Positions 5,119-35,336 of a stretch of 41,811 nt of DNA are shown here, piece after piece (position 1 is the stretch's first letter; every line of letters begins with the position of its first letter). Location: positions 1 through 41,811 of the forward strand of contig JAHLWH010000183.1 in NCBI GenBank assembly GCA_019058015.1, read 5' to 3'. The DNA comes from Promethearchaeota archaeon (GTDB taxonomy: Archaea > Asgardarchaeota > Lokiarchaeia > Sigyniarchaeales > SOKP01). Position numbers and translations under genes: made by a program. The notes beneath the pieces are model-generated. The model was given only the letters and a program-made list of their open reading frames with translations, did not search any database and was not told the DNA's origin.

Positions 5119-8100
5119 TTATTCTTTTTTAAATTGAAATTCTATTGACTTAATATCTCTAGCTTTTAATTTGATATTACAATATGGACAATTTAATTCA
5201 ATTTTATCCTTTAATTTTGAAATTATATTATCTTTTAAAGAAGCCAAACAATCTTTATTTGGACAAATGTTTAATGTTTCAATTACTTTCTCTTTATCTC
5301 TTGTTAAATCACCGAAACTAATTTCAAGATTTTTGGCAGTTACCTTATCTGAAATGGTATCTTTATTTTTTTCAATATATTCCTTTAAAAATTGAGCGTT
5401 TGTTCCAATCGTTAAAGATATTTTTTCTCCTACTTTAAAATTGTTTTTTTTCCGAGAAAATTGAATATTTCTTACTAAATCATTTACCACGCGCTCAGCT
5501 AAGAGTTCTTCATCAAGGCTAATATCCAAATAAATATTACATAGTTTTGATTCTGCCTTAAGGAGATTTTTTGTTGGCTTTATAGATTTAACAATCTCTA
5601 ATTCTTTAACATTTCCCATTTGTTTTATTACATCTGGGAATATAATCTCCGGCATCCCATCTTTGGGTTCAATTATTATTTTTCTATTTGGCCATCTTAA
5701 CCTAATTTTATGTTCATCTTTTATAGAACGGATGATTTCTATCAGATCTCTCGTAAATTGCATTTTTTCTTCTAATTCCAAATCAATTACTTCTCCTTTG
5801 ACTTCCGGCCAGTCTTGCAAGTGAATGCTCTTAGTTTCCCCTAAACCCATTGATTTAAGAAATGGTTTAAACATTTTTAGGAAAATTTCTTCACTTAACA
5901 TTGGATTTATGGGAGCTAGTAATAAAAGAACTTTAAATAACACATCGAACAGCACAGCCATAATTTGAAATTTGTTTGGATCCTCGGAATATAATTCAAT
6001 TTTCTCCCGGTTTAGCATTATGTACCACCGGCTAATATCATTTACTATTAGATCTCTCAGTTGCTGTGTAATCCACGGAAGTTTATACTTATCAGATAGT
6101 TCTGTAACATTTTTAATTGTAGAATTTACTCTTGAAAGTAGCCATTTATCTAATTTGTTTAATCTTTCTATATTGATTTCCACTTTTGAAGGATCAAATT
6201 TGGCTAAAGTAAATTTCTCATTTGCATACACATAGATATTCCAGAGTGTATTAATGATTTTATAAGTATCTGTATATTCTTTTACGCTAAAATTTAAATC
6301 ACGACCGGGTTGGGTCGCACCAATTGAATAAAAGCGAAAAGTTTCAATTCCCTTAATATCGGAATATTTTTTATTATTTTTTATTTCTTTTAGAGTTCCA
6401 TTAATGAGATCTTCAGGGCCGAAAAAAGTTCCACGCGATTTACTTAATTTTTGATTATCTCTTAATACCCAACCGTGCATATAACAAGCATCATAATTTT
6501 TACGTTTAGATGAAACCATTGCACTACATAAAAGACTATTAAACCATCCTCTAATCTGGTCCTTTCCTTCTATAATAAAATTTGCTGGAACCCATGTATC
6601 ATAATGTCTTTTTCCATCATAAACTTCTTGAGCTGCCCACATTACAGAGCCAGAATCTAACCAAACATCTAAAATATCAGGTATTCTTTTTTTAGTTCCT
6701 ATTTTGCATTTTTCACATTTCCAGGTAACCTTATCGATCCAAGGACGATGTAAATCTTCAGGACATTCTCCAGCAATTTCTTTCAATTCTTTTCCTGAAC
6801 CAATTACAGTAGTATCACTACAATCTTCGTTATCACAGATCCAAACACTCAAAGGAACTCCCCAGAATCTTTGCCTTGAAATACACCAATCTTTTAAAGA
6901 ACTTAACCAACTTTTAAACCATCTATTTCCAGCCCAATCAGGAACCCAGTAAATTTCCAAATTTTTTTCTAACATTTCAGAAATAAGAGGTTCAGTTTTA
7001 AAAAACCATTGGTCTGTTGCTCTATACACTAATTTTGAATCGCATCGCCAGCAATGTGCATATTCATGCTCTATTTCATTCGTTAATAAAAGTGTTCCTT
7101 TTTCCTTCAATAAATCTAATATTTCTTGATTGGCATCAAAAACAAATTGTCCTTCAAATTTTCCTGCTTCTTTTGTATATATCCCTCTAATATCAACAGG
7201 TGTAAAAACTGGTATATTATTAGCCACACCAACCTCAAAATCTTCTGGTCCATGTCCTGGAGCAGAATGTACCAATCCCACACCTTCTGATGCAGAAACG
7301 TATTCATCTGATAAAACAATCGAATGAACTGTATCACTTTCTTTAGCTAATTCTTTTTGATAGGGAACCTCTTCTAAAAGTGGATGGATATATTTCATCC
7401 CTTCAAGGGCTTCACCCTTATATTCCTCCACAATCTTGAATTTATATCCCAACTCTCCAGTTATAACAAAAGTTGAGGAGCTTTTTGATAAAATCCAATA
7501 TTCATTTAAATCTTCAATTTTAACTTTCACGTATTCAGCATATGGATTTGCCATAATTGCTTCATTAGCAACTAAAGTCCAAGGGGTCGTTGTCCAAATA
7601 ATAAAATAGGTGTTTTCCATATCAATGGATTTGAGTTTTAAGAATAAACTTACATCCTTAATATTTTTATAATCGAATTCATGTTTGGCTAAAGCGGTTG
7701 CACATCTCGGGCAGCAATTTTGGGGTCTATAAAATCTATATAGTAAGTTATTCTCCCATGCTTTCTTTAATGTCCACCAGATACCTTCGAGATAACTATT
7801 TTTTAAAGTGATATATGGATTGTCCCAATCCCAAAAATAACATCCTAATCGTTTAAATTGTTCATTCATAATTACACGATTGTCTTCAGCAAATTTCTTA
7901 CAATTTTTAATGAATTTATCTACTCCATATTCGAAAATTTCTTGCTTATTTTTAATTCCTAGTTGTTTTTCCATTTGGACCTCAATGGGCAATCCATGAG
8001 TGTCATATCCTGGAGTATCTGTAACCTTAAACCCTTTCATTCGTTTATATCTAATTAGATAATCTTTCAATATCTTATTCCAAGCGGTTCCAAGATGAAT

Positions 8101-8256
8101 TGACCCGGTAGTATAGGGAGGTCCATCAATAAATCTCCAAGTTTCTCTACCTTCTTCTTTTTTTCTTATTAAGGAATATATATTCTCCCTTTTCCAATAG
8201 TCCAGTATTTTTTCTTCTAATTTTAATAACTCCAACTTTTTATCCAATGTTTCCAT
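5119..8256 (-). CDS. ileS: Isoleucyl-tRNA synthetase
   Basis: A 1045-residue class Ia synthetase that charges tRNA-Ile. The HIGH motif is HLGT at residues 54-57 (context GPPYTTGSIHLGTAWNKI), and the KMSKS loop is KLSKS near residue 605. The editing (CP1) domain has the conserved WTTTPWTL segment, followed by YRFYRPQNCCPRCATALA-type zinc cysteines. The WFNSLLCSAM, anticodon-binding and DISRWYI segments are as expected. The C-terminus carries a zinc site CPNKDC with a second CPYC about 25 residues later, as in the long archaeal/eukaryotic-type and type-2 bacterial IleRS. The length agrees with that class. It appears monocistronic, with 145 and 160 bases of AT-rich sequence on either side. Confidence 0.97.
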   Translation of the reverse strand: METLDKKLELLKLEEKILDYWKRENIYSLIRKKEEGRETWRFIDGPPYTTGSIHLGTAWNKILKDYLIRYKRMKGFKVTDTPGYDTHGLPIEVQMEKQLGIKNKQEIFEYGVDKFIKNCKKFAEDNRVIMNEQFKRLGCYFWDWDNPYITLKNSYLEGIWWTLKKAWENNLLYRFYRPQNCCPRCATALAKHEFDYKNIKDVSLFLKLKSIDMENTYFIIWTTTPWTLVANEAIMANPYAEYVKVKIEDLNEYWILSKSSSTFVITGELGYKFKIVEEYKGEALEGMKYIHPLLEEVPYQKELAKESDTVHSIVLSDEYVSASEGVGLVHSAPGHGPEDFEVGVANNIPVFTPVDIRGIYTKEAGKFEGQFVFDANQEILDLLKEKGTLLLTNEIEHEYAHCWRCDSKLVYRATDQWFFKTEPLISEMLEKNLEIYWVPDWAGNRWFKSWLSSLKDWCISRQRFWGVPLSVWICDNEDCSDTTVIGSGKELKEIAGECPEDLHRPWIDKVTWKCEKCKIGTKKRIPDILDVWLDSGSVMWAAQEVYDGKRHYDTWVPANFIIEGKDQIRGWFNSLLCSAMVSSKRKNYDACYMHGWVLRDNQKLSKSRGTFFGPEDLINGTLKEIKNNKKYSDIKGIETFRFYSIGATQPGRDLNFSVKEYTDTYKIINTLWNIYVYANEKFTLAKFDPSKVEINIERLNKLDKWLLSRVNSTIKNVTELSDKYKLPWITQQLRDLIVNDISRWYIMLNREKIELYSEDPNKFQIMAVLFDVLFKVLLLLAPINPMLSEEIFLKMFKPFLKSMGLGETKSIHLQDWPEVKGEVIDLELEEKMQFTRDLIEIIRSIKDEHKIRLRWPNRKIIIEPKDGMPEIIFPDVIKQMGNVKELEIVKSIKPTKNLLKAESKLCNIYLDISLDEELLAERVVNDLVRNIQFSRKKNNFKVGEKISLTIGTNAQFLKEYIEKNKDTISDKVTAKNLEISFGDLTRDKEKVIETLNICPNKDCLASLKDNIISKLKDKIELNCPYCNIKLKARDIKSIEFQFKKE

Positions 8257-8401: not shown

Positions 8402-10048
8402 TTACGGCATCATATGTGGAGGCGGAGTTTTTAAACAAAATCCACATTTACCAAATGAAGAAATTGTTTGATCCCAACAATGTTTATGATATAATCTCTC
8501 ACAATATGGACATTCCGTTCGACATTGATTATCATCAGCAGACGCAATAGGTAATTTACATGCACCGTCTGGACATTGAATTTGATGACAAATTACACAT
8601 GAAATAACCGAAACTTCAAAAATCTTTTTAGATATCGTGTTAAATAAATCAATTAGATATGTAAAAGGCGTCCAGTCATCAAAGAATTGCTGAATAGATG
8701 TTTCCAGTTTCTTTTTTATTGGCTCGTGGATTTTATCTTCAAATTCATTTAATACTTTAAGTTCGGGAGGATTCATAGGATAATTTGGGGGTAAAATTGC
8801 TTGAAATTCAAAAATAATATTCTCGGTTTTCATTTTACCTTTCATTTTCAGATTAATTGTATTTGTGAAAGCGTCAAATTGAAGCTCATCAATGCCACCT
8901 TTTAATAAATTAATCTCAAAATTTACTCTCGAATTTTTATCAACTAGCCAAGATATTTCTCTTAAAATGTCCACTACTTCTGATTGTTTAGGTATCCAAC
9001 TATTGATAGAGTCTAACTTGGAAGGAGAAATTTGTATTAAACTATTTAATTCTGGGCTGTAATGCAAAACGGGTGGGTTTGGATATTTACTAATATCTAC
9101 CTCTAAATCGTATTCTTTAAATCCATATGTAAGTAAATGAACATTCAACTTTGAAATGTTTCCCTCTATTGGTTCAGCTTGATATTCTCCTGATATTTTT
9201 TTGAATTGAACTTCAATATCTTTTACGAAAAATAATTTATTTTCGATTTCTCGTATTAACTCTACAATATGTGGAGGTGATTTTGAGTTCCATTTTTTAA
9301 GCAAATTAAGTACTTTCTTTGGTTCTCCTAAAAGATTTATTACTTCTTCTGGAAATGTAATGATGGGTTTTTCAGGGTAGTTATTGAAATCAATCTCGAT
9401 GATAAATGTTTTTTCTAAGGTAATTGTGAGATACACGTTGATATCTGCTTTATTTTTTTCTTTTTGATCAATTGGATATTCCATTTGGATTAATCCTAAT
9501 TCTGTAATGACTTCTAAAGGCATAGTAAATGCTTCTTCAGTAAAAGATTGCATTTCTGGTTTTGGAGATTGAAAAGATTCCTCCTTCGGTTTTTCTTCTT
9601 CATAATAGTCAGGAGTAATGAATGAGTCTTGTTGAAGAGATATTTCTTCTGCAGGATATTTGGAATAATCTGGAGTAATATACTCTTCTAATTTTTCAAC
9701 AGGAGGTTGAATAGGACCTAAATCTTCTACAATTTTTGCCGTTCCACTTAAAGCACTTTGAATTTTATCTTTTAATTCTTTTATTATATCAACAACTCTT
9801 GAATCAGGAGTCCAATTCTTTATTTTATCAAGATTTATATCTCCTAATAAATCTTTTATCTCTTGATGAAGTATTATTTGAGGAGGGGCATGAGGAAAAG
9901 TTTCATCAAATTTCACCTCTATAATGAATTTTTGTTTTGAGGTTTCATATACAGCTCCATATAAATGAGCAATATTTCCAGATACCATCCAAAAAGAAAA
10001 TTGTGATGCGATAATTTGAGCTTCTTTTAAAATTCTCTGCTTTTCCAT
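8402..10048 (-). CDS. Four E2/RWD-like repeats plus C-terminal RING-like zinc domain (FANCL-like layout)
   Basis: A 548-residue protein. Four segments share the RWD/UEV/E2-fold signature of a Y/F-P-x(1,2)-P-P/I strand turn, then a tryptophan about 25-35 residues on, then a hydrophobic helix. They are: FPHAPP at 51 with W79; YPEKPI at 224 with W253; YPNPPV at 322 with W351; and YPMNPP at 423 with W459. Repeats 1 and 2 are joined by an acidic, proline-rich linker (about 105-175) with duplicated ITPDY. The C-terminus has C484-x2-C487, C509, C513-x2-C516, H521-x2-C524, C535-x2-C538, a treble-clef RING/PHD-type zinc pattern with CVIC and YHKHCW. No repeat has an E2-type catalytic cysteine. The inferred role is an adaptor or E3-like ubiquitin-family ligase. 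Eukaryotic FANCL has a similar order (E2-like, two RWD, RING). Partners are unknown; no ubiquitin, E1 or E2 gene is in the window. Confidence 0.75.
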   Translation of the reverse strand: MEKQRILKEAQIIASQFSFWMVSGNIAHLYGAVYETSKQKFIIEVKFDETFPHAPPQIILHQEIKDLLGDINLDKIKNWTPDSRVVDIIKELKDKIQSALSGTAKIVEDLGPIQPPVEKLEEYITPDYSKYPAEEISLQQDSFITPDYYEEEKPKEESFQSPKPEMQSFTEEAFTMPLEVITELGLIQMEYPIDQKEKNKADINVYLTITLEKTFIIEIDFNNYPEKPIITFPEEVINLLGEPKKVLNLLKKWNSKSPPHIVELIREIENKLFFVKDIEVQFKKISGEYQAEPIEGNISKLNVHLLTYGFKEYDLEVDISKYPNPPVLHYSPELNSLIQISPSKLDSINSWIPKQSEVVDILREISWLVDKNSRVNFEINLLKGGIDELQFDAFTNTINLKMKGKMKTENIIFEFQAILPPNYPMNPPELKVLNEFEDKIHEPIKKKLETSIQQFFDDWTPFTYLIDLFNTISKKIFEVSVISCVICHQIQCPDGACKLPIASADDNQCRTECPYCERLYHKHCWDQTISSFGKCGFCLKTPPPHMMP

Positions 10049-32716: not shown

Positions 32717-33673
32717 ATGTTTGAATTTGTATTTGCGCTACTATTTTTGATTGGCGGGATTTTAATTATATTTTTTGCCAGTAATATAGCTGTCAAGCAT
32801 TCTGCCATACTTGCATCCGCTCTAGGTATATCTCCCTTAATAATCGGTATTTCATTGGTGTCAATAGGCACTGATCTTCCTGAAATATTTAACTCAATCA
32901 TATCATGCTCTTTAGGACATGGAGATATTGATGTAGGGGATTCTGTAGGTTCAATTTTAACTCAGATTACTTTGGTCTTTGGGCTTCTACCTATAATTTG
33001 CGGTTCATTTAAGATTGATAGAAAGGAAATTATTATCTTGGGTGCTTGCCAAATTTTAGGGCTTATAGTGATTTATGCTATTCTTGAAAAAGGATATTTC
33101 ACTCAACTTAATGCTATTATTATGGTTGGAAGTTTGGTGATTTATTTAATAATAATAAGTAGTGTTACTAAGGAAAGCATTTTGGAGCGGGTAGATTTGA
33201 TAGAAAAAACAGATACTACCAGAAGTAAACCATTTCATATTATAATAGCCTTTTTAGGTTTTATAGGAGTAGCTATTGGTGCATCTGCCATTGTTCAATC
33301 AATAATTACACTCTCAAGCATATTTCATGTTCATGAATATATCATTAGTTTTTTTATAGCCAGTCTCGGAACTTCTCTCCCAGAATTAGTAGTCGATGTA
33401 AATGCTATTCGTAAGAAACATTATAAAATCGCAATTGGAGATATAGTTGGTAGTTGTATAGTTGATTCAACACTCTCCATAGGGATAGGGCAAGTACTTT
33501 TTCCACAAGTAATTTCTGCCGAACTCGCAGTTCCGACAGTTCTATATACTCTTTTTGCATCTTTTATAGTTTTTATTATTGTTGCAGTTAAAAAAAAAAT
33601 GGATAAAAAAGCTGGAATTGCTTTCATCATACTCTATTTATTTTCATATTTATTATTATTTATTTTAATCTAA
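32717..33673 (+). CDS. CaCA-family cation (Ca2+ or K+/Na+)/H+ or Na+ exchanger, copy 1
   Basis: A 318-residue membrane protein with about 10 hydrophobic helices in two halves. Alpha-repeat 1 is SIGTDLPEIFNSIISCSLGH followed by DVGDSVGS, and alpha-repeat 2 is ASLGTSLPELVVDVNAIRKK followed by IGDIVGS. Both keep the GT/S-x-x-PE cation-binding signature, including the key glutamates. The usual asparagine after the second glycine is replaced by aspartate (GDSVGS, GDIVGS). The loop between the halves is short and charged (SVTKESILERVDLIEK). It is the YrbG-like length, so an inner-membrane exchanger. The ion specificity is unknown. Divergent from the small regulator, with operator-like palindromes before it. 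Confidence 0.85.
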   Translation: MFEFVFALLFLIGGILIIFFASNIAVKHSAILASALGISPLIIGISLVSIGTDLPEIFNSIISCSLGHGDIDVGDSVGSILTQITLVFGLLPIICGSFKIDRKEIIILGACQILGLIVIYAILEKGYFTQLNAIIMVGSLVIYLIIISSVTKESILERVDLIEKTDTTRSKPFHIIIAFLGFIGVAIGASAIVQSIITLSSIFHVHEYIISFFIASLGTSLPELVVDVNAIRKKHYKIAIGDIVGSCIVDSTLSIGIGQVLFPQVISAELAVPTVLYTLFASFIVFIIVAVKKKMDKKAGIAFIILYLFSYLLLFILI

Positions 33674-34373: not shown

Positions 34374-35336
34374 ATGTATGAAATCTTATTTGCGATTATA
34401 TTTCTTATTATCGGAATATTTCTTATAGCATTTTCCAGTAAAATCGCTGTAAAACATTCAGCAATCCTCGCAACTGCTCTTGGTGTATCACCTTTAATAA
34501 TCGGTCTCTCATTGGTATCAATAGGAACAGATCTTCCAGAAATATTTAACTCAATTATCTCATGTTCTTTAGGGCACGGAGATATTGATGTAGGGGATTC
34601 TGTAGGTTCAGATTTAACTCAATTAACTTTAGTTTTTGGACTTCTGCCCATAATTTGCGGCTCATTTAAGGTTGATAGAAGGGAAATCATTGTATTAGGT
34701 GGATGTGAGATTTTATCACTTATAGTAATTTATGCCATTGTTGAAAAAGGATATTTTACTCGACTTAATGCACTTATTATGGTTGGGAGTTTGGTGATTT
34801 ATTTAATAATAATAAGTAGAGTTACTAAGGAAAGTATTTTGGAGCGGGTAGATTTGATGGAAAAAATTGAAACTACTAGAAGCAAACCATTTCATATTAT
34901 GATTGCCTCTTTAGGTTTCATAGGCGTAGCTATTGGCGCATATGCAATCGTTCAATCAATAATAACACTCTCAAGTGTACTTGATGTTCATGAATATATC
35001 ATCAGTTTCTTTATAGCTAGCCTCGGTACTTCTCTCCCAGAATTAGTAGTCGATATAAATGCTATTCGCAATAAACATTATAAGATCGCAATCGGAGATA
35101 TTGTTGGTAGTTGCATAGTTGATTCAACACTCTCCATAGGAATAGGACAAGTACTTTTTCCACAAGCGGTTTCTGCCGAAATCGCAATTCCTACAATTCT
35201 TTATACTCTTTTAGTATCTTTTATTGTTTTTGTCATGGTTGCAGTAAGAAAAAAAATGGATAAAAAAGCTGGTATTATCTTCATTTCCCTATATTTAGCT
35301 TCATACATATTTCTCTTTTTTACGATTTGGATTTAA
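34374..35336 (+). CDS. CaCA-family cation exchanger, copy 2
   Basis: A 320-residue paralogue of the gene at 32717-33673, with the same helix layout. The alpha repeats are SIGTDLPEIFNSIISCSLGH and ASLGTSLPELVVDINAIRNK. A visible difference lies after the first repeat, GDSVGSDLTQ here versus GDSVGSILTQ in copy 1, adding an acidic residue beside the ion site. This might alter selectivity, though that is inference. Other changes are mostly conservative and lie in the membrane helices. Start ATG at 34374; the Shine-Dalgarno is weak (TGCTGAAAA). Confidence 0.85.
   Translation: MYEILFAIIFLIIGIFLIAFSSKIAVKHSAILATALGVSPLIIGLSLVSIGTDLPEIFNSIISCSLGHGDIDVGDSVGSDLTQLTLVFGLLPIICGSFKVDRREIIVLGGCEILSLIVIYAIVEKGYFTRLNALIMVGSLVIYLIIISRVTKESILERVDLMEKIETTRSKPFHIMIASLGFIGVAIGAYAIVQSIITLSSVLDVHEYIISFFIASLGTSLPELVVDINAIRNKHYKIAIGDIVGSCIVDSTLSIGIGQVLFPQAVSAEIAIPTILYTLLVSFIVFVMVAVRKKMDKKAGIIFISLYLASYIFLFFTIWI

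Follow-up and report, generated by a model that had tools for sequence, protein, structure and literature searches.

In a 41,811-nucleotide stretch (positions 1–41,811) of contig JAHLWH010000183.1 of a Promethearchaeota archaeon (GenBank assembly GCA_019058015.1), referred to here as the window, an open reading frame (ORF) on the minus strand was found to encode a 548-amino-acid protein that is likely to serve in Asgard archaea as a RING-type E3 ubiquitin ligase with tandem RWD repeats, or as the RING subunit of such a ligase. The original prediction, made from the sequence alone, had described this product as four E2/RWD-like repeats fused to a RING-like zinc domain in a FANCL-like layout and had suggested an E3 role. 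The ORF (positions 8402–10048) begins with ATG, and its boundaries were exact. Its nearest relatives were found in metagenome-assembled genomes of Lokiarchaeia/Lokiarchaeota (90–92% identity), and further ones in other lokiarchaeal and Sigynarchaeota metagenome-assembled genomes (about 38–49%). The ORF is a genuine, conserved gene that has been maintained, since homologues of about the same length are present across the whole order (families f1–f4), 27 of them could be aligned, and the ratios of nonsynonymous to synonymous substitution rates (dN/dS) against three relatives were about 0.26, 0.19 and 0.16, indicating purifying selection. A Sigynarchaeota-type copy was also present in a record titled Bathyarchaeota (L008, Bin_245), which covers the same stretch as genome G161, belongs to the order of the window genome and is probably mislabelled.

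The ubiquitin-pathway role inferred in the original prediction received strong support from gene neighbourhoods in relatives. That no ubiquitin gene lies nearby holds for the window, but it gives a wrong impression of the genome, in which a ThiF protein resembling E1 is encoded close to an E2 on another contig (C195), and a ubiquitin with a Gly-Gly-Ile (GGI) end on a further one (C40). Elsewhere in the class, in its sister orders (families f5–f7), the orthologue consists of three RWD repeats and a RING, and in three of four genomes (L155, L156 and L157) an E1 gene (ThiF, E-value about 1e-57 to 1e-62) directly follows it on the same strand; in L157 the gene order is RWD-RING, E1, E2 and JAMM protease. 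The E2 of L157 was 65% identical to that of the window genome, and the sister-order E1 was 61–65% identical over about 160 amino acids.

A shorter form of the protein, of about 290–310 amino acids and, by sequence, with two RWD repeats and a RING, was detected in four genomes (family f20) from a different Asgard class and in a single genome of the Sigynarchaeota order. Profile comparison by hhalign relates these proteins (probability 97%) to the C-terminal region of the window family; their RING spacing is FANCL-like (CxxC-x13-Cx4C-x4-H-x2-C..CxxC), with Trp at the canonical E2-contact position and FANCL_C scores near the threshold. E1 and E2 genes adjoin the two-RWD RING gene in all five genomes, ubiquitin was identified in three (ending in GGF, or in GGT with a short tail), and a JAMM-type protease gene lies near it in some. 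These clusters independently support an E3 role for Asgard RWD-RING proteins.

It should be noted that the five loci (L162, L163, L164, L165 and L168) share a conserved order, with E2 and E1 facing the two-RWD RING gene and the ubiquitin gene seen at L162, L163 and L165. Beyond the RING gene lie genes for an HExxH (M48/SprT-like) protein with a C-terminal RING-like finger, an AAA ATPase and a hinge-bearing SMC protein, together with two small genes, possibly kleisin- and winged-helix-type partners; a JAMM protease is nearby in some. The locus looks like a ubiquitin-linked genome-maintenance locus. The Sigynarchaeota-order genome (L164, G159:C173) carries the whole f20-type ubiquitin/SMC locus, with E1 83% and E2 85% identical, reflecting either horizontal transfer or a misbinned contig.

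Four repeats of helix–four-strand–helix topology, the second spanning about residues 176–274, were predicted in an AlphaFold model of the whole protein (8 sequences, mean predicted local distance difference test (pLDDT) score of 73), mostly with pLDDT of 75–93; the E2/RWD-like nature ascribed to all four thus agrees with the predicted fold. Residues 103–174 form a disordered linker (pLDDT below 50) whose length differs among homologues, and repeats 3 and 4 are connected by a 28-residue helix (residues 358–385). In whole-protein searches, repeat 1 matched Pfam UQ_con (E-value 5.8e-9, best stretch 30–93; 36.1 bits against a cut-off of 27) and repeat 4 matched Pfam RWD (E-value 3.7e-8, best stretch 377–469; 34 bits against a cut-off of 22.8), whereas repeats 2 and 3 were connected to this fold through profile alignment. 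The model of repeat 1 resembled E2 chains (Z of 10–12), and that of repeat 4 resembled the TSG101 UEV domain, RWDD1, GCN2 and the RNF25 RWD domain (Z of about 11). The VIA-align lists for both models, the second being of repeat 4 and the RING alone, were filled by single E2, UEV and RWD chains, and the RING was barely tested in them.

Profile–profile comparison gave E-values of 7e-13 (R1–R2), 1e-10 (R1–R3), 3.5e-16 (R2–R3) and 8e-8 (R1–R4), against 2.5e-4 for the best of 120 column-shuffled decoys and 0.016 or worse for reversed ones, while direct comparison of R4 with R2 and R3 gave no significant match. Judged from these profiles, R1, R2 and R3 are clearly homologous to one another and R4 is homologous to R1; R4 is counted as a member of the repeat family because of this link and its own Pfam RWD match. 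The four turns (FPHAPP, YPEKPI, YPNPPV and YPMNPP, at residues 51, 224, 322 and 423) and the downstream Trp of each (residues 79, 253, 351 and 459) were all seen as described, although the motif common to them, [FY]-P-x-x-P, is looser than the proposed Y/F-P-x-P-P. The absence of a catalytic E2 cysteine was borne out: the window protein has no Cys before residue 484, and homologues have none to two in this part, so that no repeat of the window protein is an active E2.

Conservation within the protein is highest in the zinc domain. The eight originally listed ligands (C484/C487, C513/C516, H521/C524 and C535/C538) are exact and invariant among 18 aligned homologues and follow the cross-brace order of a RING, C-x2-C ... 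C-x2-C-x4-H-x2-C ... C-x2-C. The pattern was nevertheless incomplete, as C492, C497, C509 and H523 are likewise invariant, as is H488. In a profile search against all PDB sequences, the best matches were all RBX1 (E-value 0.003), followed by RING-H2 ligases, RBX2 (0.09) and APC11 (0.4), and the RBX1 alignment paired C492, C497, C509 and H523 with positions lying as C..C..C..H between C2 and C6, the third-zinc ligands of RBX1. Twelve ligands in three sites are therefore proposed from this alignment, namely, C484, C487, H521 and C524; C513, C516, C535 and C538; and C492, C497, C509 and H523. The C-x2-C-x4-H-x2-C core is similar to that of the C4HC3 RINGs in Listerin and FANCL. The domain is thus RING-like, as predicted, and by sequence of the RBX1/APC11 type with a third zinc site. 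A hairpin at residues 510–521 and a helix at residues 522–532 were predicted there, at low confidence (pLDDT about 45–75). The first E2-contact position (C1+2) is hydrophobic in 38 of 38 homologues.

An unrelated zinc ribbon is unlikely: ribbon, PHD and C1 profiles matched weakly, mostly in shifted registers that dropped the first CxxC, whereas RBX1 aligned over the full length; AlphaFold confidence in this domain is too low to decide between ribbon and RING alone. In nearly all members the RING forms one chain with RWD repeats rather than a separate cullin-bound subunit, although no search for cullins was made. The exception is L050, where the same three-zinc RING lies close to the N-terminus of a protein of about 260–280 amino acids that is otherwise dissimilar, indicating that the domain is mobile.

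A Foldseek search of 350,542 PDB chains with the whole model ranked FANCL, the DNA-repair ubiquitin ligase of the Fanconi core complex, first (E-value 5.7e-8 over 403 alignment columns; a second FANCL chain, 1.6e-7), followed by BRE/BABAM2 chains; the FANCL central domain also ranked high, and KNL1 and Mediator subunits were present; the top rank of FANCL is partly due to the small number of PDB chains that hold several E2-fold domains. FANCL is built of an E2-like fold, a double RWD with a long kinked helix and a RING (PMC5264512), and this order is present in the window protein with one additional RWD. The FANCL-like layout therefore stands as regards the top structural match and the long helix between the last two repeats, but a specific FANCL identity does not: Pfam FANCL_C had no match in the window protein at E-values up to 10, its cut-off of 27.3 bits was reached by no Asgard genome (best in the phylum, 24.7 bits), and the RING is RBX1/APC11-like. 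The window protein also has four E2/RWD units against three in FANCL, and L3–L4 spacing of C-x2-C against C-x4-C.

When repeat 4 and the RING were searched alone, yeast and human Listerin came first, with alignment over almost all 193 residues. The C-terminal end of Listerin (LTN1) likewise places an RWD directly before the RING, but Listerin itself, very long and built of HEAT repeats, has one RWD, whereas the window protein has four RWD-type repeats and no HEAT repeats. RBX1, RBX2 and APC11 share the aligned third-zinc ligand positions and the HxHC motif but have C-x-H instead of C-x2-C at L3–L4, and RBX1 and APC11 work as small separate subunits on cullin-type scaffolds. Among archaeal proteins, srfp, the small RING protein of Caldiarchaeum and Asgard ubiquitin operons, is a RING E3 encoded together with E1, E2 and ubiquitin (PMC5654768), but it is small, and RWD goes unmentioned there. 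The UEV of Asgard Vps23 in ESCRT-I, which binds ubiquitin (PMC9192718), is another catalytically dead E2-fold domain in Asgard archaea, although Vps23 has a single UEV, a coiled coil, a steadiness box and no RING, and acts in another pathway. The term "RWD" is absent from both of these papers on archaeal and Asgard ubiquitin systems, and no description of an archaeal RWD-RING protein was found in the open-access literature, the search not extending to subscription journals and preprints.

Several observations weigh against a ligase. Confidence in the zinc domain is low in both models (pLDDT about 45–75), not being raised enough when R4 and the RING were modelled alone, and the RING fold is to that extent weakly supported. 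At C6+4, where the E2-contact Trp usually lies, most homologues have Thr, and an invariant Trp/Phe is found at C6+1; the RING may therefore bind E2 weakly or depend on a partner to do so. The "linchpin" basic residue (K/R) lies at C8+2 rather than C8+1. In Lokiarchaeia the gene stands beside ileS and not beside ubiquitin genes. ThiF genes are several per genome (3–8 in the sister-order genomes), and the three E1-adjacent cases come from two related families only; with ThiF genes this few, chance would not be expected to place one directly next to the RWD-RING gene, although the genomes concerned are related ones.

The absence of the canonical contact Trp would also suit a non-catalytic scaffold of the kind that BRE/BABAM2 provides in BRISC, in which tandem UEV/RWD domains would hold a JAMM deubiquitinase together with ubiquitin and the zinc domain would have a structural role. 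BRE has tandem UEV-type domains, its chains come next after FANCL in Foldseek, weak Pfam BRE scores were obtained for the three-RWD relatives (E-value 0.0027–0.017), and a JAMM gene occurs in the same cluster in one genome. This explanation is nevertheless unlikely: BRE, a deubiquitinase scaffold, has no RING, yet the three-zinc RING block is the best-conserved part of the window protein, and the nearest neighbours are E1 and E2 rather than JAMM.

The Listerin match of R4 with the RING, together with the linkage to ileS, found in about 15 loci of two families (window positions 5119–8256 beside 8402–10048; L019–L035), would fit a translation- or ribosome-linked factor, that is, a Listerin-like RWD-RING protein of translation quality control in which ubiquitin is secondary. 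It is a quite improbable account, as the sister-order orthologues neighbour E1 and E2 and have no ileS beside them, the ileS linkage may be inherited gene order only, and Listerin is itself a ubiquitin E3, so that this account differs mostly in the substrate and not in the mechanism. Least probable is a true FANCL orthologue that serves crosslink repair through mono-ubiquitylation of a FANCD2/FANCI-like clamp: the whole-chain match, the domain order and, in the two-RWD relatives, the FANCL-type RING spacing, near-threshold FANCL_C scores and adjoining SMC and AAA ATPase genes speak for it, but orthology of the window protein is ruled out by the lack of a FANCL_C match and the RBX1-type third zinc, the extra RWD and the inflated FANCL rank also counting against it.

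Under the favoured reading as a RING-type E3 ligase, we infer that the C-terminal three-zinc RING would recruit the E2 of the genome, charged with ubiquitin by its E1, while R2–R4 would form an adjacent RWD arm binding a substrate or partner, and the flexibly tethered, E2/UEV-like repeat 1 may bind ubiquitin or stimulate or tune the E2. By analogy, the protein most probably resembles FANCL/Listerin-type ligases in its working; membership of either family is not claimed.

Table 1. Coordinates of the multi-RWD RING gene and its parts in the window
Feature	Position	Strand	Evidence
Whole gene, 548-aa multi-RWD RING protein	8402..10048	-	Exact ORF, order-wide homologues of similar length, dN<dS
Repeat 1, E2/UEV-like, no catalytic Cys, residues 1-102	9743..10048	-	UQ_con, alpha-beta4-alpha model topology
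Disordered variable-length linker, residues 103-175	9524..9742	-	Low pLDDT, length variation between homologues
Repeat 2, RWD-like, residues 176-274	9227..9523	-	Model topology; profile match to R1 and R3; decoys
Repeat 3, RWD-like, residues 275-373; helix 358-385 to repeat 4	8930..9226	-	Model; profile match to R1 and R2
Repeat 4, RWD directly ahead of RING, residues 374-480	8609..8929	-	Pfam RWD; structural matches
Three-zinc RING-like domain, residues 481-541	8426..8608	-	12 proposed ligands invariant; RBX1 profile match

Elsewhere in the window, the genes at 32717–33673 and 34374–35336 are neighbours and encode closely similar copies of a multi-span membrane protein resembling a sodium/calcium exchanger. 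Widespread Lokiarchaeial proteins with an N-terminal vWA domain (Ssl1/Tfb4-like) and one or two C-terminal RING/PHD-like fingers were also recorded (L105, L106, L108 and L171, the last at G000:C39 in the window genome) and are reminiscent of TFIIH subunits.

In accounts of archaeal ubiquitin systems to date, the E3 is a small RING protein. A large E3-like protein with tandem RWD domains, together with its shorter relatives in E1-E2-ubiquitin clusters, would mean that the RWD-RING architecture of FANCL and Listerin is older than the eukaryotes. Archaea related to the ancestors of eukaryotes probably already had the RWD-RING style of ubiquitin ligase, and the E1, E2, ubiquitin and E3 together make a compact set of parts for reconstitution. 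More tentatively, it may be that RWD-RING ligases of the FANCL, Listerin and RNF25 style predate eukaryotes, the Asgard family with two to four RWD repeats and a RING being the dedicated E3 of ubiquitin operons and its branch linked to SMC, AAA ATPase and HExxH-RING genes possibly already acting in genome maintenance.
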